From: Prolixibacteraceae bacterium
GTDB lineage: Bacteria > Bacteroidota > Bacteroidia > Bacteroidales > Prolixibacteraceae
Direction of reading: 5' to 3'
Length of the DNA: 33,072 nucleotides
NCBI GenBank assembly: GCA_009773765.1
Contig: WTWZ01000035.1
Coordinates: 22,938-56,009, forward strand
In this document: piece after piece, positions 358 to 11,293 of the stretch
Numbering within the stretch: position 1 is the stretch's first letter
How the letters are laid out: every line of letters begins with the position of its first letter
Program-made: the position numbers and the translations under genes
Notes under the pieces: model-generated
The model's database searches: none
What the model was told of the DNA's origin: nothing
The model's input: only the letters and a program-made list of their open reading frames with translations

Positions 358-1281
358 TTACATATTTTTTAAACTCAAAAACGATTCAATTTCTGAACGC
401 GTTGGCGCCGATGGCTGCGCCCCCATTCGGGTTACACTGATTGCAGCGGCGGCGCTGGCAAACTGCAAAGCCTCTTTCATCGGTTTTCCTTCGACAAAAG
501 CCACAGCAAAAGCGCCGCAAAAAGTATCGCCGGCAGCGGTGGTGTCAACAGCATCAACTTTATAAGCCTGAACACTAATTTTTTCGGTTTTGGTTACTAC
601 AAAGGCGCCTTTTGAACCCAATGTGATAATAACTTTTTCAACGCCGCTATCAACCAGTTTTTGCGCGGCTTTTTCAGCATCCGTTTCGTTTTCAACCAGA
701 ATACCCGCCAGAAAACCGGCTTCAACCTCGTTTAAAACGAGTATATTTATTTTCGGGATGTATGACACGTCAAAAGCACGGGCAGGCGCGCAGTTCCACA
801 TTACCGGAATCCCTTTTCGGTTTGCCAGGCCGATAACATACTTAATGGTTTCTTCCTTGATTTCGTATTGCATTACAATCAGGGCCGCCTCATCAATCAC
901 CTGAATTGCCTCATCAATTTTTTGAGGGGTAAGTTTGTAATTCGCCCCCGGCGCCACCGAAATATAATTCATCCCTTCGCCGCCAATCATAATTAACGCG
1001 TGCCCGCTGGCAATTCCTTTTTCGTAAAAAACAAAGCGGGCGTCAATTCCGTCACTTATATAATTCTGCACCATTTGCGGGGTGTAGGCATCTTCGCCCA
1101 CACAGTTTACAAATGCCACATTTCCGCCGGCGCGTGCCGCAGCAACGGCCTGGTTGGCCCCTTTTCCCCCATACACCTGAAAAAATTCAGCATCGGTAAC
1201 CGTTTCACCTTTTTCCGGAAGGTGATCCATTTTCATTAACAAATCGACATTCGAACTGCCGATTACAACTATCTTTCTCAT
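358..1281 (-). CDS. rbsK: Ribokinase / deoxyribokinase-like PfkB sugar kinase
   Basis: The product (307 aa, usual ribokinase length) is a PfkB-family kinase that phosphorylates ribose or 2-deoxyribose at O5 in the cytoplasm using ATP. The N-terminal GSSNVDLLMK (8-17) and GGKGANQAVAAARAGG (38-53) are the substrate-side signatures, and VDTTAAGDTF (245-254) is the anion-hole/catalytic motif with Asp252 as base. The usual DTTGAGD reads DTTAAGD here, a mild substitution. The ATG at 1281 lies one base after the stop of the upstream sugar transporter, so the two are cotranscribed. DeoC and a GRP transporter just upstream suggest 2-deoxyribose as an alternative substrate; ribose and deoxyribose cannot be told apart from sequence. 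Confidence 0.9.
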   Translation of the reverse strand: MRKIVVIGSSNVDLLMKMDHLPEKGETVTDAEFFQVYGGKGANQAVAAARAGGNVAFVNCVGEDAYTPQMVQNYISDGIDARFVFYEKGIASGHALIMIGGEGMNYISVAPGANYKLTPQKIDEAIQVIDEAALIVMQYEIKEETIKYVIGLANRKGIPVMWNCAPARAFDVSYIPKINILVLNEVEAGFLAGILVENETDAEKAAQKLVDSGVEKVIITLGSKGAFVVTKTEKISVQAYKVDAVDTTAAGDTFCGAFAVAFVEGKPMKEALQFASAAAAISVTRMGAQPSAPTRSEIESFLSLKNM

Positions 1282-1282
1282 C

Positions 1283-2287
1283 TTAATTCAGTCTTGCAAT
1301 TACAATCAACGCCAACCCGATAATAAACAATGCAAACATGGCAGCCAGCAGTTTATTGGTTCCCTTTGGCGCTGCGGCGAATTCCTTCCACACAAAAACG
1401 CCCCAGGCAGCCGAAATCATAGTGGCGCCCTGCCCAAGTCCGTAAGAAATTGCAAATCCGGCCTGCTCGGAAGCCATCAGGTTGAATTCCATTGCAGCAC
1501 ACCAGATTAGTCCCCCCAGAATTCCGATGAAATGCAGTTTTGGAGTGCCAATTTTGAAATAATCACTGTAAGACACTTTTCTGCCGGTAACAGGTTTGTA
1601 CATAAACCAGGTGTTAAACACAAAATTCGACAGGAAAATTCCGATGGCAAAAACAAACATGGCCGAATACGGGGTGAGCAGCCCTGTATCGGGTGTGGCA
1701 AAGTTGGTGGTCATGGATGCAGCCACAAAACGGTAGAAAAACCCCATCAGAATACCTGAAATGATGGAAATGACAATGCCTTTTTTCTGGTCGCCTTTCT
1801 TGTCCTGCGGAAGTTTTTTATATGCTGCCGTATCAACCAGAATGGCAAAAACAACAAGTGCCAAACCAATAAAAAGCAGGTACGGATCCCCCAGCGGCGT
1901 GGCAATATAATTTATCACCACACCAATTACAAGCGCCAGTCCAACCGCAATGGGAAAAGCAACTGCCATTCCGGCAATTGCGGTAGCCGCCACAATCAGC
2001 AAGTTTGAAAGATTAAACACAACTCCCCCGATAAAAGCTGAAGAAAGCGCCGAAAAATCGGCTTGAGAAAGGTCGGCCACAAAACTGCGCCCTTCGTCTC
2101 CGGAGCTGCCAAAGGTAAATCCGAATAACAAAGTAGTCAACACAAGTCCGATGGAATAATCCCAGTAATAAAGGGGGAATTCCCATTTTTTCGGGGTCAT
2201 TTTCAGGGTATTGGCCCACGAGCCCCATCCCAGCATGGTAATGATGCAGAATACTACTGCGAGCGAGTAAGAATCGACGATGTACAT
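1283..2287 (-). CDS. GRP-family (RhaT/GRP-like) sugar transporter
   Basis: This is a 334-aa integral membrane protein with about ten hydrophobic segments and no signal peptide. The start MYIVDSYSLAVVFCIITMLG followed by WGSWANTLKM and PLYYWDYSIG is typical of the GRP (glucose/ribose porter) branch of the drug/metabolite transporter superfamily, common in Bacteroidota beside ribokinases or nucleoside hydrolases. It would import a pentose across the inner membrane by cation coupling. It is followed after one base by ribokinase and preceded by deoC, with a GC-rich repeat in the 69-base gap. The operon context points to ribose or deoxyribose as substrate; this is inference, since the family carries several sugars. 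Confidence 0.85.
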   Translation of the reverse strand: MYIVDSYSLAVVFCIITMLGWGSWANTLKMTPKKWEFPLYYWDYSIGLVLTTLLFGFTFGSSGDEGRSFVADLSQADFSALSSAFIGGVVFNLSNLLIVAATAIAGMAVAFPIAVGLALVIGVVINYIATPLGDPYLLFIGLALVVFAILVDTAAYKKLPQDKKGDQKKGIVISIISGILMGFFYRFVAASMTTNFATPDTGLLTPYSAMFVFAIGIFLSNFVFNTWFMYKPVTGRKVSYSDYFKIGTPKLHFIGILGGLIWCAAMEFNLMASEQAGFAISYGLGQGATMISAAWGVFVWKEFAAAPKGTNKLLAAMFALFIIGLALIVIARLN

Positions 2288-2304
2288 AATAGTTTATAGT
2301 TTAT

Positions 2305-2333
2305 AAGCCCCCCTTAATCCCCCCGATGTGGGG
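2305..2333 (+). repeat. CCCC/GGGG intergenic repeat, copy 1
   Basis: The sequence AAGCCCCCCTTAATCCCCCC followed by GATGTGGGG matches the short palindromic repeat found three more times in this window (2391-2423, 24565-24600, 29105-29143). It lies in the gap between deoC and the GRP transporter. C-rich and G-rich arms can form a stem, which may modulate expression between the two operon genes. Confidence 0.65.
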
Positions 2334-2356
2334 AAATTAGGAAGCAGGTTAGTATT

Positions 2357-3127
2357 TTATTGACTGTTTCTCTCATTTATGGCACTTTCAAAGCCTTCCC
2401 CCTCGGGGGAATCAGAAGGGGGCCACCTTTTTTTTGCCTCATCAATCATAGCGGAGGTTGCTGTTGCGCCGCTGCGTGAACAGCCTGCGGCCCGCACAGC
2501 CAGCAACTGGTCGAGGTTGCGAACGCCACCGGCAGCCTTCAGTTTCACTTTTGGACCGATGCTATTCTTCATCAATTCGAGTACCGGAATTGTCGCGCCC
2601 TGGTAGTTGTAATCGCCGTTGGGTTGCTTTACAAATCCGTAACCCGATGAGGTTTTTACGTAATCGGCGCCCACTTTTGTACAAATCTGGCAAAGTTTCA
2701 CAATGTCGGCTTCTTTTGTTACGTAATCGGTTTCAAAAATGACTTTCACAATTGCACCATTCTCGTGGCATTTTTGGGTTACAGCGCCAATCTCGGTCTC
2801 AATATAATCCCAATCGCCTTGCAGCGCCTTGCCGATGTTAATAACCATGTCGATTTCCACCGCACCGTCATTGCAGGCGGTTTCCGATTCGAAAACCTTA
2901 ACTTCGATGGCCGAATTACCGGCAGGAAAACCGATAACACAACCAACCAGTACATCACAACCTTTGAGCAGTTCAACGGCCTGTTTTACTGCATACGGTT
3001 TTACGCAAACTGACGCCACATCATACTTTTTAGCCACTTCACATTCTCTGCGCAAATCTTCATCGGTCATTGTAGGATGAAGAATGGAGTGGTCAATCAT
3101 TTTTGCGAGTTCTTTTACTTTGTTCAT
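2357..3127 (-). CDS. deoC: Deoxyribose-phosphate aldolase
   Basis: DeoC cleaves 2-deoxyribose-5-phosphate to acetaldehyde and glyceraldehyde-3-phosphate in the cytoplasm. The family motifs are all present in order: MIDHSILHPT near the N-terminus, EIDMVINIG, the Schiff-base lysine in DYVKTSSGYG, and KLKAAGGVR with the second lysine. The ATG at 3127 (MNKVKELAKMIDH) is chosen because it starts after the stop of the upstream hydrolase; in-frame ATG at 3145 and TTG at 3148 would overlap it. After the normal end (SGATATSAMIDEAKKR) the protein carries an odd tail, WPPSDSPEGEGFES and a few more residues, encoded by an intergenic repeat. It sits between the serine hydrolase and the pentose transporter/kinase pair. 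Confidence 0.93.
   Translation of the reverse strand: MNKVKELAKMIDHSILHPTMTDEDLRRECEVAKKYDVASVCVKPYAVKQAVELLKGCDVLVGCVIGFPAGNSAIEVKVFESETACNDGAVEIDMVINIGKALQGDWDYIETEIGAVTQKCHENGAIVKVIFETDYVTKEADIVKLCQICTKVGADYVKTSSGYGFVKQPNGDYNYQGATIPVLELMKNSIGPKVKLKAAGGVRNLDQLLAVRAAGCSRSGATATSAMIDEAKKRWPPSDSPEGEGFESAINERNSQ
2391..2423 (-). repeat. CCCC/GGGG intergenic repeat, copy 2, inside the 3' end of deoC
   Basis: On the minus strand it reads GCCCCCTTCTGATTCCCCCG then AGGGGGAAGG. It is translated as the non-homologous PPSDSPEGEG tail of DeoC, so the repeat appears to have inserted across the original stop region and the gene now ends about 40 bases further on. Confidence 0.65.
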
Positions 3128-3137
3128 ATTTAAAAAT

Positions 3138-4430
3138 TTAATCATCAATCGTTTGAAACACCAGTTGCCTGAATTTCCAACCTGTTTCGTCGTTTACCTG
3201 GCCCTGGGTTTGTTTGAAGATAAGCCCGATAACCTGTTCTTTCGGGTCGGCAAAATACTGGGTGTTGAAATAGCCGCCCCAGTCGAAGGTTCCTTTACTG
3301 CCGTTTCCTCCCCTGTTCTGCCCTGTTTCTGTGGTTAAACCAAAGGCCAGTCCGTGATACTTCGTTGGGAAACTGAACAATTCATCTGTATGGTTGGCCA
3401 TAATTACATCAACCGTGGTGCGGCTTAAAATGCGTACACCATTTAATTCTCCGCCGTTAAGATACATTTGCAGGAAAGAGGCATAATCCTTAATTGTACC
3501 GGAAAGTCCGGCTCCGCCCGAGAAGAAGGATTTTGCCCCTTTAACCGGATAATCGGTATCGTAAAAAGTAACCGGGTACTTCTCCCATTTTCCATTTACT
3601 TTATGCTGAACGGCCACTAACCTCCTGGCTTTATCATCAGTAAAGTAAAAACGTGTATCGTCCATTCCAAGCGGATCGAAAATCCGGGTTTTCAGGAATT
3701 CATCGAGTGGCATACCTGAAACCACTTCGATAAAATATCCAAGCACATCCAACCCTTCGCTGTAAGTATATTTATCGCCGGGATTGTGATGGAGCGGCAG
3801 TTTGGCCAGCTTTTTCACACTTTCCGCAATCGTAATTTTTTCGGCTGTAAAAAGGTCGGTAATGCCGGCTTTTTGATAAATAATTTTTATTTGTTCGTTA
3901 CCATCGATAATTCCATATCCAATTCCAGAAGTATGTGTAAGCAGTTGGCGGATAGTAATTTCCGATTTTGCCGGCTCTGTGGTGTAAGTTGTATCGGCAT
4001 ATTTGAATGATTTCAAAACCTGCGGATTTTTAAATTCAGGGATGAATTTCGAAATCGGATCATCGAGCCTGAATTTACCCTCTTCCCACAGCATCATTAC
4101 GGCGGTTGAAGTAATGGCTTTGGTCTGACTTGCAATGCGAAAAATATCGTCACGTTTCATGATTTTGCCTGCCTGATTATCGGCCATTCCGTAAGCCTTC
4201 CAGTGAACGATTTTGCCATTTCGCACAACCAAAGATACAATACCCGGCAGATTGCCATTTGCCACTTCCTCTTCGCACATTTTATCGATTCGCGCGAGTC
4301 GCTCGGGTGAAATCCCCACGCTTTCGGGCGATGCTTCAGTTAATACCGGCGATTTTTGCGCAGATTTGGTTTGGGCGGTTAATCCAGTGAAAATTAACAG
4401 GACAATTGTAGTAAGAATCAGATTTTTCAT
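3138..4430 (-). CDS. Secreted serine hydrolase of the class C beta-lactamase fold
   Basis: The 430-aa product begins with the signal peptide MKNLILTTIVLLIFTGLTAQ, so it is periplasmic or lipid-anchored outside the cytoplasm. The beta-lactamase/transpeptidase-like domain (PF00144) fills the rest: the nucleophile motif is Ser101-Gln-Thr-Lys104, the second catalytic motif is Tyr-Ser-Glu at 223-225 (YSN in classical enzymes), and the C-terminal WGGYFNTQYFADPKEQ matches the family's last conserved block. Members include esterases, D-amino-acid peptidases and PBP4-like proteins, so the substrate is unknown. It is unlikely to be a resistance beta-lactamase. Its promoter region holds the large TTATCGGT palindrome at 4451-4499, shared with the satD operon. 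Confidence 0.9.
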   Translation of the reverse strand: MKNLILTTIVLLIFTGLTAQTKSAQKSPVLTEASPESVGISPERLARIDKMCEEEVANGNLPGIVSLVVRNGKIVHWKAYGMADNQAGKIMKRDDIFRIASQTKAITSTAVMMLWEEGKFRLDDPISKFIPEFKNPQVLKSFKYADTTYTTEPAKSEITIRQLLTHTSGIGYGIIDGNEQIKIIYQKAGITDLFTAEKITIAESVKKLAKLPLHHNPGDKYTYSEGLDVLGYFIEVVSGMPLDEFLKTRIFDPLGMDDTRFYFTDDKARRLVAVQHKVNGKWEKYPVTFYDTDYPVKGAKSFFSGGAGLSGTIKDYASFLQMYLNGGELNGVRILSRTTVDVIMANHTDELFSFPTKYHGLAFGLTTETGQNRGGNGSKGTFDWGGYFNTQYFADPKEQVIGLIFKQTQGQVNDETGWKFRQLVFQTIDD

Positions 4431-4450
4431 TTATTTAATATTTAAATTTA

Positions 4451-4472
4451 TTATCGGTTATTATACCGATAA
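4451..4472. promoter_or_regulatory. TTATCGGT dyad, operator candidate 1 (upstream of the serine hydrolase)
   Basis: TTATCGGT (4451-4458) and ACCGATAA (4465-4472) form perfect 8-base arms around 6 bases. It is 20 bases upstream of the serine hydrolase ATG at 4430 and downstream of the DUF3307 stop. The same 8-6-8 layout recurs at 5903-5924. Confidence 0.65.
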
Positions 4473-4479
4473 ATCGTAA

Positions 4480-4499
4480 TTATCGGTATAATAACCGAT
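4480..4499. promoter_or_regulatory. TTATCGGT dyad, operator candidate 2
   Basis: TTATCGGT (4480-4487), 6 bases, then ACCGAT (4494-4499). This copy is the exact reverse complement of bases 4453-4472, so the two together make a 20-bp perfect inverted repeat with a 7-base loop. That could also form a strong stem in RNA at the end of the DUF3307 gene, so a terminator role is possible alongside or instead of an operator role. Confidence 0.55.
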
Positions 4500-4501
4500 G
4501 C

Positions 4502-5209
4502 TTATATGCTATTTATGAGAATTCCACAAAAAACTGCAATTCCAAAACTTAACAAAGTTCCAACCAGTACATATTCGCTTTTCGGTGTGGCGTTAAAACG
4601 TAGAATAGATTTAGCCGCAATTATCAATCCTAAAGCCTCATATTGGCCAGGTATTACCAAAGCCAGGGCAATTAACCGTTCAGCGATTCCAATTAATTTG
4701 CCTGCATTGGGTAAACTCAGTTCTTCTTTTTTATTTCTGTCTTCATCCGGTGTTTTAATGTCAAAAGCAACGAAAAGATATTTTATAATGATATTTGAGG
4801 GTTTGGTGCAGAATATAATTCCTGTGAAAATAGCAATTGTTTTCATTGAAAATTCAAGGTATTGATTTAGCCCAACAAGGGAACTAAATAAATATGTAAC
4901 AAGTAAAATGGCAATAATATGAATAAGCTGGTCCGCAAAAAAATAGTTCTTTCCCTTAAATTTCAGGATTAGCCAACTTTTCAGGATATCAATAATCATG
5001 TGCAAAAAGGCAATCAGTAGGGCTGCGGACCAAAATCCTAAATCGAAGGCCAATAAATATGAAAATATCCCAACAATCAGGAAATGCCTTAGATGGTAAG
5101 TCGAAAATATCTTTCTGCTCTTTTTGTCGCTCATTTTTTGTGGCTGAAAAACAAAATCAGCCAGCAAATGAGCGCAAAACTGAAGCAGGAATAAATTTAA
5201 TTCAATCAT
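4502..5209 (-). CDS. DUF3307 integral membrane protein
   Basis: This 235-aa protein has about six or seven hydrophobic helices. Its N-terminus carries the DUF3307 (PF11750) signature: LLQFCAHLLADFVFQPQKMS, then a basic loop and HLRHFLIVGIFSYLLAF, with LHMIIDILKSWLI in the next helix. The conserved His/Asp residues inside helices hint at a functional rather than purely structural membrane core, but no activity is established for the family. The ATG overlaps the stop of the upstream satD-like gene by four bases (ATGA), so the two are translationally coupled. The pairing of SatD and DUF3307 proteins recurs in Bacteroidota, to my recollection. Confidence 0.8.
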   Translation of the reverse strand: MIELNLFLLQFCAHLLADFVFQPQKMSDKKSRKIFSTYHLRHFLIVGIFSYLLAFDLGFWSAALLIAFLHMIIDILKSWLILKFKGKNYFFADQLIHIIAILLVTYLFSSLVGLNQYLEFSMKTIAIFTGIIFCTKPSNIIIKYLFVAFDIKTPDEDRNKKEELSLPNAGKLIGIAERLIALALVIPGQYEALGLIIAAKSILRFNATPKSEYVLVGTLLSFGIAVFCGILINSI

Positions 5210-5892
5210 GATACTGTTTTTTCGAAGTAGTTAATAACTTTTTCTATTGATAACCAGCCTGCTGCAGTGGAATGTTGACTTATAGTTGACTGATATTTTT
5301 TCAGTTTTGATGAAATGTCCTTCTCACTCAAATTCTGTAGTTTGTAATAGATAACTTCGCTCTGTTTGGCCGAATACCTGGAAAGGATTGTATCGATTAA
5401 GGAAAATATGGTATCGAACTGCTCCTGTAATTTTTCATCCGGGCTACAAAAAAACATCGTATTTTTAATCACAATCTTTTGTTTATCAGAGGTTGATAAA
5501 TTCTTAATTGTTCTTCCGGATAAATAAATTGCATCTCCATCAATTATTCCATTTTGCGGGTCGATGGTTAAAAGCGGGGCAACTGCTATTGCCATGCGGA
5601 TTCCATGTTCAAAAAAATATTTAAGCTTATTATTTGATGCATTTGGTATATTCAGGTCTAATGATTTTATGAATGTTTTGAGCAATAATCCGATTCGTAA
5701 TGCATCTTTTGGCGAGTTTATTACGCACTCGATATAATCTCCTTGCACCAGTCGTCCAAAAAAACCTTGTTCCTTGTATTTTTCCGACAATTCGGACAAC
5801 AACCGTTTGATGGAATTTTCCAATTTTCTCTTCGCTTCATCTGATAGAGAAGTGTACGAAATGACATCAGATGAAATAGTGGCAAAGTTCAT
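5206..5892 (-). CDS. SatD-family protein: nucleotidyl-cyclase-like domain plus C-terminal helix-turn-helix
   Basis: The 228-aa cytoplasmic protein is best placed in the SatD family (PF16264), named for a streptococcal acid-tolerance operon. Residues 7-17 read SSDVISYTSLS, then LVQGDYIECVINSPKDAL (48-65), GIRMAIAVAP (97-106) and GDAIYLSGR (119-127). In order and spacing these match the blocks of class III nucleotidyl cyclases: first metal Asp (D9), GD with second metal Asp (D52), the central strand, and the N-x3-R motif (here Tyr123 and Arg127). Residues about 180-222 (LSEKDISSKLKKYQSTISQH and AAGWLSIEKVINYF) look like a helix-turn-helix. It is followed with a 4-base overlap by DUF3307 and preceded by TTATCGGT dyads. 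The cyclase comparison is my own inference; activity is doubtful because Asn is replaced. Confidence 0.75.
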   Translation of the reverse strand: MNFATISSDVISYTSLSDEAKRKLENSIKRLLSELSEKYKEQGFFGRLVQGDYIECVINSPKDALRIGLLLKTFIKSLDLNIPNASNNKLKYFFEHGIRMAIAVAPLLTIDPQNGIIDGDAIYLSGRTIKNLSTSDKQKIVIKNTMFFCSPDEKLQEQFDTIFSLIDTILSRYSAKQSEVIYYKLQNLSEKDISSKLKKYQSTISQHSTAAGWLSIEKVINYFEKTVS

Positions 5893-5902
5893 ATTATCTT
5901 TT

Positions 5903-5924
5903 TTATCGGTAAATATACTGATAA
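5903..5924. promoter_or_regulatory. TTATCGGT dyad, operator candidate 3 (upstream of the satD-like gene)
   Basis: TTATCGGT (5903-5910), 6 bases, then ACTGATAA (5917-5924): the same 8-6-8 layout as at 4451, with one mismatch. On the minus strand the centre reads TATATTTA, one base from the Bacteroidota -7 element TAnnTTTG, so a bound protein would cover the promoter. The gene starts 11 bases away at 5892. Confidence 0.6.
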
Positions 5925-5931
5925 AAGCTAT

Positions 5932-5939
5932 TTATCGGT
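5932..5939 (+). promoter_or_regulatory. Additional TTATCGGT half-site
   Basis: A further exact TTATCGGT lies 29 bases (about three helical turns) from the start of the dyad at 5903, in the same orientation. It supports a multi-site operator before the satD-like operon. Confidence 0.45.
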
Positions 5940-5966
5940 GTTTTTGGCTATAATATTTATCCATAA

Positions 5967-7418
5967 TTATTTCATTCCTTCCAGCACCAGCACCCAATCG
6001 CAACCCCTGCCCGATTTCAGCCAGGTTAGTTCTTTCGACATTCCGGGCACATCGAAAGTGCGGGTTCCCTGATTTTCAAATTCGCCAATTGCGGTGGTTT
6101 CCCCGGTGCGAGGGTCGAACCATGAGGCTTTAATTTTTTGTCCTGAAATTTTACCCAACTGAATCTCAGGTTTTCCTCCCGAGGGTATATAAATAAGCGC
6201 GAACGATTTACCCCGGATGGCCGGAATATAATTGGCACAATCACCCTGCCCGGAAATTATCAGCGATTGGTCGGGCTGTAATTCGTTTAAAGGAAAACGT
6301 AGCATGAGATTCTTTAAATACCCGACCTGTTTTGCTCCGGGCATTTCCATCCCATCCTGCCAGTTTGAAAATGCTTTTGGCGAATGTTTTTTGCGGGTGT
6401 CGTCGGTAAATTGCCAGATGGGCTGACACCCGTAGGTAAATCCTGCCGCCCCTGAAAACACGCTCCAGTAGGCAGCGATGCGCACATCAGCCGACGTAAA
6501 AACCCCGTTATCATCGATTGCATAATTAATTCCGTGGCCTTCGTAGCAAGGTTCAGAATTTAGTGTTGGTTTCGGATTGGGCAGATTCCAATCGGCAATG
6601 GCTGCCATATACGAAGTGGTATTATTCACTTCGGCATGGTACGAGCCCCAGGTGTGAAAGTCAATCCATTCGTCCGTGTGAAACCATTTCGATGATGATG
6701 TGAATGAATGATAGGTCATCAGGGTGGATGTATAATCGGCCTTTCCATCCTGCTTTTTAATGTTGTTCGTTCCGTCGGCAACTCCTTCTGCCATGGCACG
6801 CCACAGTTCAATTCCATTTTTGCGTTCATCGGGCTGACGGTCGCCTCCGAGAATCCAAATAACATTTTCACTTTTTCTGTGCCGATTTCCCAAAAACCAA
6901 CCGTAGTTGTATGCTTGTTCCATGGTATTGAAAAGCGCTTTATCGGTTCGCGGGGTTACCCATTCGCCCCAGGTGGGAAGTAATGCCAGATACAAATCCT
7001 TTTTCGCAGCAGTTTCAACTGCAAAATCAACATGGTCCCAAAAATCGTATTCGTCCTGATATTTTGGGTTTTTACCCGCTGATATTTTGGGTTTCTCCGG
7101 ATTTTCGTCCACAAAAATGCTGTCGCCATAAAAATTGGTGACTTTATCCATGTGAATAAATTCGCTGATAATCACCGTCTGAATAACGTTAAAGCTTTTT
7201 GCTTTTCGGTTCTCCAGATAGGTTTCAATTTCTGTGCGATTTAACCGGTGTAGCATTTCCCAACCGGTATCGGCCATCCAGAAAAAAGGCGTTCCATCAA
7301 GGTGCGAAATGTAATGCGGGTTTTCTTTTGAAACCTGAAGCGGCCCGTGCGCTTTCCATGGCTGTGAAGAAACAGCGGCGGCAAAAAGTAAGTGAATGTA
7401 AAAACAGATAATTTTCAT
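5967..7418 (-). CDS. DUF4038 / GH140-like apiosidase with C-terminal putative collagen-binding domain
   Basis: This is a 483-aa exported enzyme (signal peptide MKIICFYIHLLFAAAVSSQP). The DUF4038 (apiosidase-like) TIM barrel is recognised by DGTPFFWMADTGWEMLHRL near the N-terminus, VIWILGGDRQPD in the middle and LNSEPCYEG, where the Glu is a likely catalytic residue. The C-terminal 90 residues (ALIYIPSGGK to KASWFDPRTGET and DWVLVLE) match the beta-sandwich labelled putative collagen-binding (PF12904) that usually follows DUF4038. GH140 members release apiose from rhamnogalacturonan-II, so a plant cell wall substrate is likely but not certain. The GntR regulator upstream may have belonged to the same utilisation locus. 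Confidence 0.9.
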   Translation of the reverse strand: MKIICFYIHLLFAAAVSSQPWKAHGPLQVSKENPHYISHLDGTPFFWMADTGWEMLHRLNRTEIETYLENRKAKSFNVIQTVIISEFIHMDKVTNFYGDSIFVDENPEKPKISAGKNPKYQDEYDFWDHVDFAVETAAKKDLYLALLPTWGEWVTPRTDKALFNTMEQAYNYGWFLGNRHRKSENVIWILGGDRQPDERKNGIELWRAMAEGVADGTNNIKKQDGKADYTSTLMTYHSFTSSSKWFHTDEWIDFHTWGSYHAEVNNTTSYMAAIADWNLPNPKPTLNSEPCYEGHGINYAIDDNGVFTSADVRIAAYWSVFSGAAGFTYGCQPIWQFTDDTRKKHSPKAFSNWQDGMEMPGAKQVGYLKNLMLRFPLNELQPDQSLIISGQGDCANYIPAIRGKSFALIYIPSGGKPEIQLGKISGQKIKASWFDPRTGETTAIGEFENQGTRTFDVPGMSKELTWLKSGRGCDWVLVLEGMK

Positions 7419-7696: not shown

Positions 7697-8404
7697 TTAA
7701 ATAAAATAACTGTTTCCAACCGGATAAACCGATGTAACACAATACAACTCGCTGTAAATATTTAGTTTAGAATTACTGGTTGAAAATTTAACTGAAATAT
7801 GGAGCAGTGGAGTCCCTGTTTTTACTTTTAATAATCCGGCATTTTTTCCGCAGGCTAACTCTGCCCTGAGTTCCTGTGATGATCCGATAATTTCAATAAA
7901 ATATTTCTTGCTTAATGTTTTAAAAAACGAACCTTCAATAAATTCTGAACATAAAAAATCAGGAAGGACCTGGCCTGAAAACCAGTTTTTTTCAAGCATT
8001 ACCGGTTCGTTTCCAACAAATCGAATTCTTTCAAAATAAAGGCAAATTGAATTCAAATCGCTGTCATTAACCGGGAGCATTATTTCAGAATCCCACTTTC
8101 CTGCTGCTGGTTTTCTGAGAAAAAGTGTCTTAATATCTTCACCAACAGCCTCAGAAAAACCTTTTACATTTAGCAAACCCAGTGATTGCCTGCGTTCTTT
8201 TACTCGACTTCCTTTTCCATGCTGCCTTTCAATAAAACTTTCCTTAGCCAGTTCATCCAAAGCCTTCCGGGCAGTAGTCCGCGTTATCGAAAAACGTACA
8301 CACAGTTCATTTTCAGATGGCAAATAATCACCTATCTGGTAATTTCCCTGCTGGATTTGACCTTTAAGGTGATTGTGGATTTCTTTATATTTAGTTTCTT
8401 TCAT
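7697..8404 (-). CDS. GntR-family (HutC/UTRA) transcriptional regulator
   Basis: The product starting at the ATG at 8404 is 235 aa. Residues 1-70 form a winged helix typical of GntR proteins: LKGQIQQGNYQIGDYLPSEN, then FSITRTTARKALDELAKESF and IERQHGKGSRV. The remainder is a UTRA effector domain (MLPVNDSDLNSICLYFERIR, FVGNEPVMLEKNWF) that binds a sugar or related small molecule. An upstream in-frame start at 8434 would place coding sequence inside the operator, so 8404 is preferred. A near-perfect 28-bp palindrome just upstream is the likely operator for autorepression and for the opposite gene, of which only a SusC-like leader remains. Confidence 0.88.
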   Translation of the reverse strand: MKETKYKEIHNHLKGQIQQGNYQIGDYLPSENELCVRFSITRTTARKALDELAKESFIERQHGKGSRVKERRQSLGLLNVKGFSEAVGEDIKTLFLRKPAAGKWDSEIMLPVNDSDLNSICLYFERIRFVGNEPVMLEKNWFSGQVLPDFLCSEFIEGSFFKTLSKKYFIEIIGSSQELRAELACGKNAGLLKVKTGTPLLHISVKFSTSNSKLNIYSELYCVTSVYPVGNSYFI

Positions 8405-8432
8405 CAGGTTAGAGTTGAACACAATATTACAC

Positions 8433-8460
8433 AATAATACTTGTACGTACGAGTATTATT
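8433..8460. promoter_or_regulatory. 28-bp palindromic operator for the GntR regulator
   Basis: The left half is AATAATACTTGTAC (8433-8446) and the right half is the reverse complement of AATAATACTCGTAC (8447-8460), so 13 of 14 positions pair with no spacer. The core TTGTACGTACGA resembles operators of Bacteroidota GntR proteins. It lies 29-56 bases upstream of the GntR ATG and between that gene and the SusC-like remnant. Confidence 0.75.
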
Positions 8461-10603: not shown

Positions 10604-11293
10604 TCACATAATCAACTTATACCCTTTCCCGTGAACATTGATAATTTCAACGGTTGGTTCTTCTTTCAGATGCTTGCGAAGCTTGGTGATATAAACATCC
10701 ATACTCCTGGCATTGAAATAGTTATCGTCAATCCAGATTGAACGAAGAGCATAATTTCTTTCCAGAATTTTATTGGCATTCTGACAAAGCAATTTAAGCA
10801 AATCCGACTCTTTAGTTGTTAGTTTAACAACTTCATTTCCCTGAGCCAAAGTCTGCTTTCGGGTATCGAAGGTGTAAATACCTAACGTAAAAACAGGTTG
10901 CGAATTTGACAAACTTTCCTGCGAAGAACGCCGCAGGATAGCTTCAATCCGCATGATTAACTCTTCCATACTGAACGGCTTAGTGATGTAATCATCAGCC
11001 CCAAGTTTGAAACCTTCCAGTACATCTTCCTTCATGTTTTTTGCGGTTAGAAAAATAATTGGGATATCAGGATTTACAATCCGGATATCTCTTGCAAGGG
11101 TAAACCCGTCTTTTTTAGGCATCATTACATCTAAAATACAAATGTCGAAATGCTCGCGCATAAAACCCTTGTACGCAACTTCCCCGTCAGGGTACAAATT
11201 TGTATCATACCCTTTTGCAATGAGATACTCTTTCAACAGTAATCCTAAATTCTCATCGTCTTCTGCAAGTAATAATTTTGTTTTCTGTTCCAT
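10604..11293 (-). CDS. rprY: OmpR/PhoB-family response regulator, RprY-like
   Basis: This 229-aa protein has an N-terminal receiver domain with the acidic pocket EDD (11-13), the phospho-acceptor Asp55 in ICILDVMMPKKDG, and the conserved Lys in DDYITKPFSMEEL. It has a C-terminal winged-helix DNA-binding domain from LTTKESDLLKLL to NVHGKGYKLIM. The wording of both halves closely recalls RprY of Bacteroides. It starts two bases after the stop of the cognate kinase, so the pair is an operon. RprY-type regulators in this phylum have been linked to redox and envelope responses; the signal here is unknown. Confidence 0.88.
   Translation of the reverse strand: MEQKTKLLLAEDDENLGLLLKEYLIAKGYDTNLYPDGEVAYKGFMREHFDICILDVMMPKKDGFTLARDIRIVNPDIPIIFLTAKNMKEDVLEGFKLGADDYITKPFSMEELIMRIEAILRRSSQESLSNSQPVFTLGIYTFDTRKQTLAQGNEVVKLTTKESDLLKLLCQNANKILERNYALRSIWIDDNYFNARSMDVYITKLRKHLKEEPTVEIINVHGKGYKLIM

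Follow-up and report, generated by a model that had tools for sequence, protein, structure and literature searches.

The closest described entries for the two genes considered here are the Pfam families SatD (PF16264) and DUF3307 (PF11750), whose names carry no mechanism. Both genes lie in the window, i.e., the whole 33,072-nucleotide stretch of Prolixibacteraceae DNA that was analyzed. DUF3307 is a clear member of its family, PF11750 being matched by 56 of 56 aligned members. SatD is placed through its relatives; the window protein itself did not match PF16264, which was matched at E<=0.1 by 12 of the 32 members of its family alignment. An annotation study repeats "secretion and acid tolerance" for SatD (PMC10326533), and a phage paper has DUF3307 in a gene table (PMC8504454). 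Searches on the streptococcal sat genes, the Pycsar/HTH theme and the family accessions found nothing on the SatD-DUF3307 pair. No description of the operator array, cyclase fold or operator-helix match of SatD was found in the literature searched, most subscription papers lying outside its scope.

Class III nucleotidyl cyclases have a transition-state Asn and Arg and a substrate-specifying Lys. SatD likewise has their fold and both metal-binding Asp residues (D9 kept in 66 of 67 sequences, D52 in 67 of 67, both corresponding in the alignment to Asp residues in Ma1120 and 3mr7). However, SatD differs at three positions lined up by motif: the catalytic Asn is lost (66 of 67 sequences have Y, T, R, V, Q, I, H or K in its place), Arg stands at the transition-state Arg position in 36 of 67, and the substrate-specifying Lys position is hydrophobic in 66 of 67. 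Because the Asp pair is kept and the Asn, Arg and Lys places are not, a nucleotide- or metal-binding sensor is favored over an active cyclase for SatD.

Fusions of a class III cyclase to a LuxR-type helix-turn-helix (HTH) are reported in Mycobacterium tuberculosis (PMC2447327, PMC4452763). Like them, SatD joins a cyclase-type domain to an HTH; SatD differs in being a small two-domain protein with its own operator array. The Pycsar system (see PMC11224242) pairs a pyrimidine cyclase with a membrane effector. SatD-DUF3307 likewise has a cyclase-fold protein and a membrane protein in a single operon, the cUMP synthase 7r65 is rank 15 among the fold matches of SatD, and one SatD-DUF3307 copy adjoins an annotated Pycsar operon. 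SatD differs by its HTH and altered active site, and DUF3307 is not an annotated Pycsar effector. SatD-DUF3307 did not qualify as a Pycsar system, which would have an active pyrimidine cyclase and a cognate PycTM/PycTIR-type effector: neither protein was matched by PADLOC models at E<=1, and the active-site residues are not kept.

Autoregulated toxin-antitoxin operons have an upstream DNA-binding autoregulator, an overlapping downstream gene and tandem palindromes, and are plasmid-borne and patchy. SatD-DUF3307 shares the regulator-first order, gene overlap, tandem palindromes, plasmid carriage and patchiness, but differs by its polytopic membrane partner with conserved His/Asp and by its cyclase-fold regulator. 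From the comparisons below, we consider SatD-DUF3307 to be probably a self-contained, horizontally moving, autoregulated two-gene cassette, in which SatD dimers would bind their own array and hold down both genes.

Genes and dyads at the locus

The features of the locus are as follows (window coordinates).

4451-4472: second 3'-flank dyad, an exact TTATCGGT-N6-ACCGATAA; the hydrolase start codon is 21 bp away
4480-4501: 3'-flank dyad immediately past the DUF3307 stop, two mismatches
4502-5209, minus strand: DUF3307 membrane protein, 235 aa (PF11750, E=1.3e-19, above cut-off)
5206-5892, minus strand: SatD-like protein, 228 aa, with a class III cyclase-fold domain and a C-terminal HTH
5263-5370, minus strand: predicted HTH, about residues 175-210, recognition helix about 201-210 (modelled secondary structure; Sigma70_r4/GerE-like family matches; covariation at 201, 203 and 206)
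5903-5924: satD promoter-side operator dyad, one mismatch to TTATCGGT-N6-ACCGATAA; tandem pair p=0.005 (window copy, L006)
5932-5953: degenerate second promoter-side dyad, three mismatches, 29 bp from the first (5903 to 5932)
7697-8434: GntR/UTRA regulator, 1.8 kb from satD
10604-11293: response-regulator-like open reading frame (ORF), recognized by eye

The start of DUF3307 overlaps the satD stop by 4 bases, and DUF3307 is translationally coupled to satD. An apiosidase-like hydrolase gene and the GntR regulator gene lie upstream of satD; a PF00144 serine hydrolase gene and deoC lie downstream. Window positions 358-4430 together with 7697-8434 form one gene group, whose members are ribokinase-like, sugar-permease-like, deoC, serine hydrolase and GntR genes. 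The initial annotation had described SatD as ending in an HTH and as the only DNA-binding candidate nearby. The modelled secondary structure and the Sigma70_r4/GerE-like family matches agree with the former, whereas the GntR/UTRA regulator and the response-regulator-like ORF contradict the latter.

The SatD model reached a pLDDT of 94.7. The SatD matches listed by Foldseek were class III nucleotidyl cyclases, 23 of them at E<=0.001, with a query TM of only 0.33-0.45; profile matches agreed with this fold. The DUF3307 model has ten helices (pLDDT 93.5), and solved relatives were found neither by profile nor by Foldseek at E<=0.001. H14, D18, H42, H70, Q94, H97, E177, R178, K200 and R204 were invariant in 56 DUF3307 sequences, which suggests an enzyme-like center. 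YdjM was matched by 1 of 56 DUF3307 members (2e-4) and was set aside.

Five dyad matches with at most three mismatches were found in the window against 0.19 expected, and at most two in each of 100 shuffles. The dyads with 8-6-8 spacing reported before the satD-like gene and before the hydrolase are thus real and beyond chance. The site at 5932 also exists; it is a degenerate full dyad, not the half-site it had been taken for. The 3'-flank pair is likewise spaced by 29 bp (4451 to 4480). Across the organism's own genome, five places matched with at most two mismatches, three of them at the satD locus, and a reversed control pattern matched none. The remaining two lie within deoC (window 2916-2937) and on another contig (C63). 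By our own estimate, chance gives about one dyad match per 4.27 Mb genome, so these two extra sites need no explanation, and no further SatD targets were evident in this genome-wide scan at two mismatches or fewer.

Operator-like arrays before satD genes and the SatD helix

Two 22-bp 8-6-8 dyads lying 26-31 bp apart were sought in the 250 bp before satD and compared with dinucleotide shuffles. In the first set, which includes the window's own copy and one near-repeat (L018 of L017), 59 of 71 loci gave p<=0.05. Of these, 46 stood at the floor of 0.005, and the period was 28 or 29 in 58 of the 59. The misses were L008, L011, L015, L029, L030, L069, L070, L084, L092, L097, L099 and L105; by eye, the stretch before L029, L069 and L070 resembles the end of an ATPase gene. 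Further plasmid records (300 bp) had an array in six of nine, the failures being L129, L131 and L133. L129 failed the test twice and was scored as a miss, with a dyad pair discernible by eye. Additional loci (260 bp) had an array in five of five; in L158, the ORF search gave no SatD. Among control genes (19 readable stretches), 7 of 144 gave p<=0.05, none at the floor and one with a period of 28 or 29.

Tandem 8-6-8 arrays thus precede 70 of 85 SatD-like genes, ranging from Bacteroidota to Gammaproteobacteria, Agrobacterium and haloarchaea, which supports an operator-like role for the dyad in the SatD-DUF3307 operon. The search upstream of satD orthologues, which the initial annotation had named as a refutation test, upheld the architecture but not the letters, which vary by lineage. 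Arrays with period 28 have half-sites every 14 bp in alternating orientation (L028, L033). The usual array has two to four dyads; in L086, a 29-bp unit with TTATAAGT half-sites occurs eleven times, from -379 to -38 of satD. Haloarchaeal L132 and L157 show TTCGCC/GGCGAA-type dyads 29 bp apart upstream of satD, so that the architecture extends to a second domain of life.

Of 62 arrays, 19 contain within their span the motif TANNTTTG, which we take to be the Bacteroidota -7 box, and 12 more have it no further than 25 bp past their end, compared with about 6% for shuffled segments. The last dyad of L037 and that of L038 contain the box. Half of the 62 arrays have no exact TANNTTTG nearby, and the window has a near match only. 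The box in or just past the arrays favors, short of proof, repression by occlusion.

The 62 arrays, including three with p>0.05, contain 44 distinct consensus half-sites; the L016 array, for example, has TTATAAGC half-sites. Half-site distances were correlated with protein distances in 55 of the 62 loci, with seven left out and eight half-sites assigned manually. With the cyclase domain removed, they followed HTH distance (partial r 0.29, p 0.0005); with the HTH removed, the partial r for the cyclase domain was -0.01. When only the inner four bases were used, the correlations were weaker and less specific (HTH 0.08, p 0.03; cyclase domain 0.08; C-terminal segment 213-226, 0.16). Among variable columns ranked by mutual information, the leading one was Q201 at bases 2-4, T203 at base 6 and Q206 at base 7; at bases 1, 5 and 8, columns outside the helix led.

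Bases 1, 5, 6, 7 and 8 were further analyzed after thinning to a single representative of each of the 16 clusters at 40%. A column within 198-209 took the top rank at base 6 in 14 of 40 draws, at base 5 in 11, at base 7 in 9, at base 1 in 7 and at base 8 in 1, the expectation being about 2; at bases 5, 7 and 8, the column that won most often lay outside the helix. The helix-base covariation is therefore confounded by phylogeny and weakens when relatives are thinned. In addition, a TCAA[C/G] dyad accompanied six of nine helices with Q202 but without Q201, in contrast to none of the other 60 (69 loci, 14 of them new to the analysis). This rule was framed after the enterobacterial sequences had been seen, and L125 and L129 are near-identical. 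As the rule is post hoc and the sequences are related, the p-values are optimistic. Nevertheless, half-sites track the HTH better than the cyclase-like domain, indicating that SatD is the likely reader of its own operator, a role that is well supported by comparison.

The downstream dyad pair and competing explanations

A locus-matched dyad was sought between -25 and +120 of the DUF3307 stop, and 50 of 55 loci could be scored. All five scored loci of the window clade gave p<=0.015 (L006, i.e., the window, L007, L036, L038 and L109). Overall, 7 of 50 reached p<=0.05, the other two (L103, L104) probably by chance, and 43 of 50 showed nothing significant. Downstream arrays were accordingly rejected as a general feature, five of the seven being window clade. 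L037 is truncated in the 3' region, and L008, which was unscored, shows no 3' dyad. Past DUF3307, L036 has no ORF of at least 70 aa for about 690 bp, L038 has none up to the contig end, and L109 has an opposite-strand gene, as judged by eye. In the window clade, the pair is thus found next to the DUF3307 stop irrespective of the sequence further downstream, which argues that it belongs to the cassette.

Hydrolase orthologues were found in relatives (L110-L121, about 65-76% identity). Their twelve upstream regions gave dyad scores of 8-11 of 16, compared with 16 of 16 in the window, and none had a convincing dyad; one reached p=0.03 with 11 of 16 letters. These scores are from the scored test, used in place of a strict dyad pattern that found nothing in L109-L122 and missed the genuine degenerate dyads of L109. 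In the genome G695, gntR, hydrolase and deoC are adjacent, with a gntR-hydrolase gap below 80 bp, and satD is on a different contig. From the dyad-poor orthologues and this uninterrupted gene order, we conclude that the cassette came to lie between gntR and the hydrolase, either together with the apiosidase gene or next to it. The contiguity of the three genes in a relative (L117) makes GntR the likelier hydrolase regulator.

These observations bear directly on the small regulon first proposed for this locus, in which SatD would bind both dyad sites and co-control DUF3307 and the secreted serine hydrolase. The 3' dyads, 21-71 bp before the hydrolase start, do occupy an operator-like place. However, the pair follows DUF3307 in five of five scored clade loci, two of which (L036, L038) have no nearby downstream ORF; none of the twelve orthologues shows a convincing dyad; and, of the 15 relatives searched, 13 are without SatD or, in one case, have it elsewhere, with no dyad before the hydrolase. 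With no further target found genome-wide, the regulon did not hold up, and we regard it as quite unlikely, although an incidental effect of SatD on the hydrolase is possible in this organism. A different reader of the dyads, be it GntR or some global factor, is very unlikely despite the GntR gene 1.8 kb upstream, given that satD takes its array along into unrelated contexts and that the letters of the array vary in step with the SatD helix. The window-clade dyads bracket a patchily distributed cassette, as the ends of a mobile element or recombination sites might, and RNA hairpins are a further reading that would deny them an operator role. Against these stand the 43 of 50 loci whose 3' end has no significant dyad and the failure to find a terminator-like site at 4400-6000; we give such readings hardly any credence. 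The remaining alternative concerns the sign of control, with SatD activating its own operon or switching between repression and activation. The 12 of 62 arrays followed by a box within 25 bp, i.e., lying upstream of the presumed promoter box, would fit this, as would the class III cyclase-LuxR HTH fusions cited above. The box inside the array span in 19 of 62 speaks against activation, which we judge unlikely.

The proposed autoregulated cassette, its distribution and meaning

Counting its own genome, 39 of 295 genomes of the order had a relative of the window protein, and the family profile matched 127 of 395 genomes of the phylum, many of the weakest matches being to the HTH region alone. 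Of 13 congeneric genomes, one had a SatD-like gene, and neither of two confamilial ones did, indicating that satD comes and goes. The Pfam SatD model found none in 21 relatives and also none in 14 control genomes, so this search was uninformative. DUF3307 adjoins satD in all 33 loci of one set, three of them truncated or partial, and in 35 of the 36 loci of another, the exception being L074. Among plasmid DUF3307 records, a SatD-like gene preceded DUF3307 in all nine examined of 19 matched, ranging from the 3.8-kb pEC34A to a haloarchaeal plasmid; three of eight were examined in another set of matches. A plasmid search with the SatD protein gave one record, and two haloarchaeal plasmids have the pair annotated at NCBI. 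On pEC34A (L125, 3.8 kb) and a K. pneumoniae plasmid (L129, 4.4 kb), the two genes are the main cargo. The 2-kb pEC34A stretch with both genes had no match covering 80% in 5,426 complete E. coli genomes, and the best 15 of 296 records matched its first 195 bases only. Two DUF3307 query proteins had no match in phages; in a further search, DUF3307 matched three viral contigs.

Some copies have conflict genes as neighbors, the following examples being not randomly chosen: a Sphingomonas plasmid copy (L131) beside an annotated Pycsar operon with TIR and ImmA/IrrE, a Pseudomonas fragi copy near an antitoxin and integrase, and an Agrobacterium copy near an antitoxin and a HEPN gene. In this Sphingomonas copy (L131, 3063-7514), the pair lies directly beside an annotated Pycsar effector, an E2-associated protein and a cyclase, and no dyad array was found. 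In Bacteroidota, 120 neighbor proteins from 20 satD loci were compared with 100 from 19 control stretches, a twentieth stretch being masked and two giant ORFs excluded. Type I restriction-modification (R-M) models matched at most three neighbor proteins each, among 25 of 217 families listed. The control stretches had no type I R-M, but SIR2, PDC-S01 and others, among 25 of 40 families listed. A defense-gene neighborhood of satD in Bacteroidota is therefore suggestive only.

In the autoregulated cassette that we favor, SatD would be a one-component regulator whose class III cyclase-fold domain, with both metal-binding Asp residues kept, is fused to the C-terminal HTH. SatD dimers are predicted to bind the tandem 22-bp dyads across their own promoter and thereby to repress satD together with the translationally coupled DUF3307. 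The half-site would be private to each cassette lineage and fit the recognition helix of that lineage. The second dyad pair of the window clade would close the 3' end of the cassette, probably by looping or as a transcription roadblock. The signal may be a nucleotide or metal in the cyclase-like domain, and DUF3307, with its invariant His/Asp, would be the membrane effector released upon derepression. A bolder and doubtful reading, which we offer tentatively, is that SatD-DUF3307 could be an unrecognized conflict or defense module across bacteria and archaea. The cyclase-fold repressor would then sense a nucleotide change during infection or stress and release a membrane-acting His/Asp enzyme, and lineage-specific operator codes, read by a few helix positions (201-206), would prevent cross-talk between cassettes that share a cell.

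Two widespread families, for which no tested function was found in the literature searched, thus appear to form a single unit that carries its own readable control element. SatD is predicted to bind at the array, and dozens of natural operator-helix pairs are available for learning its specificity code. The orphan pair is now directly testable, and whatever releases SatD from the array would tell when DUF3307 switches on. If DUF3307 proves toxic or phage-protective, the pair would be a new conflict system controlled by a cyclase fold, extending from small enterobacterial plasmids to haloarchaea.
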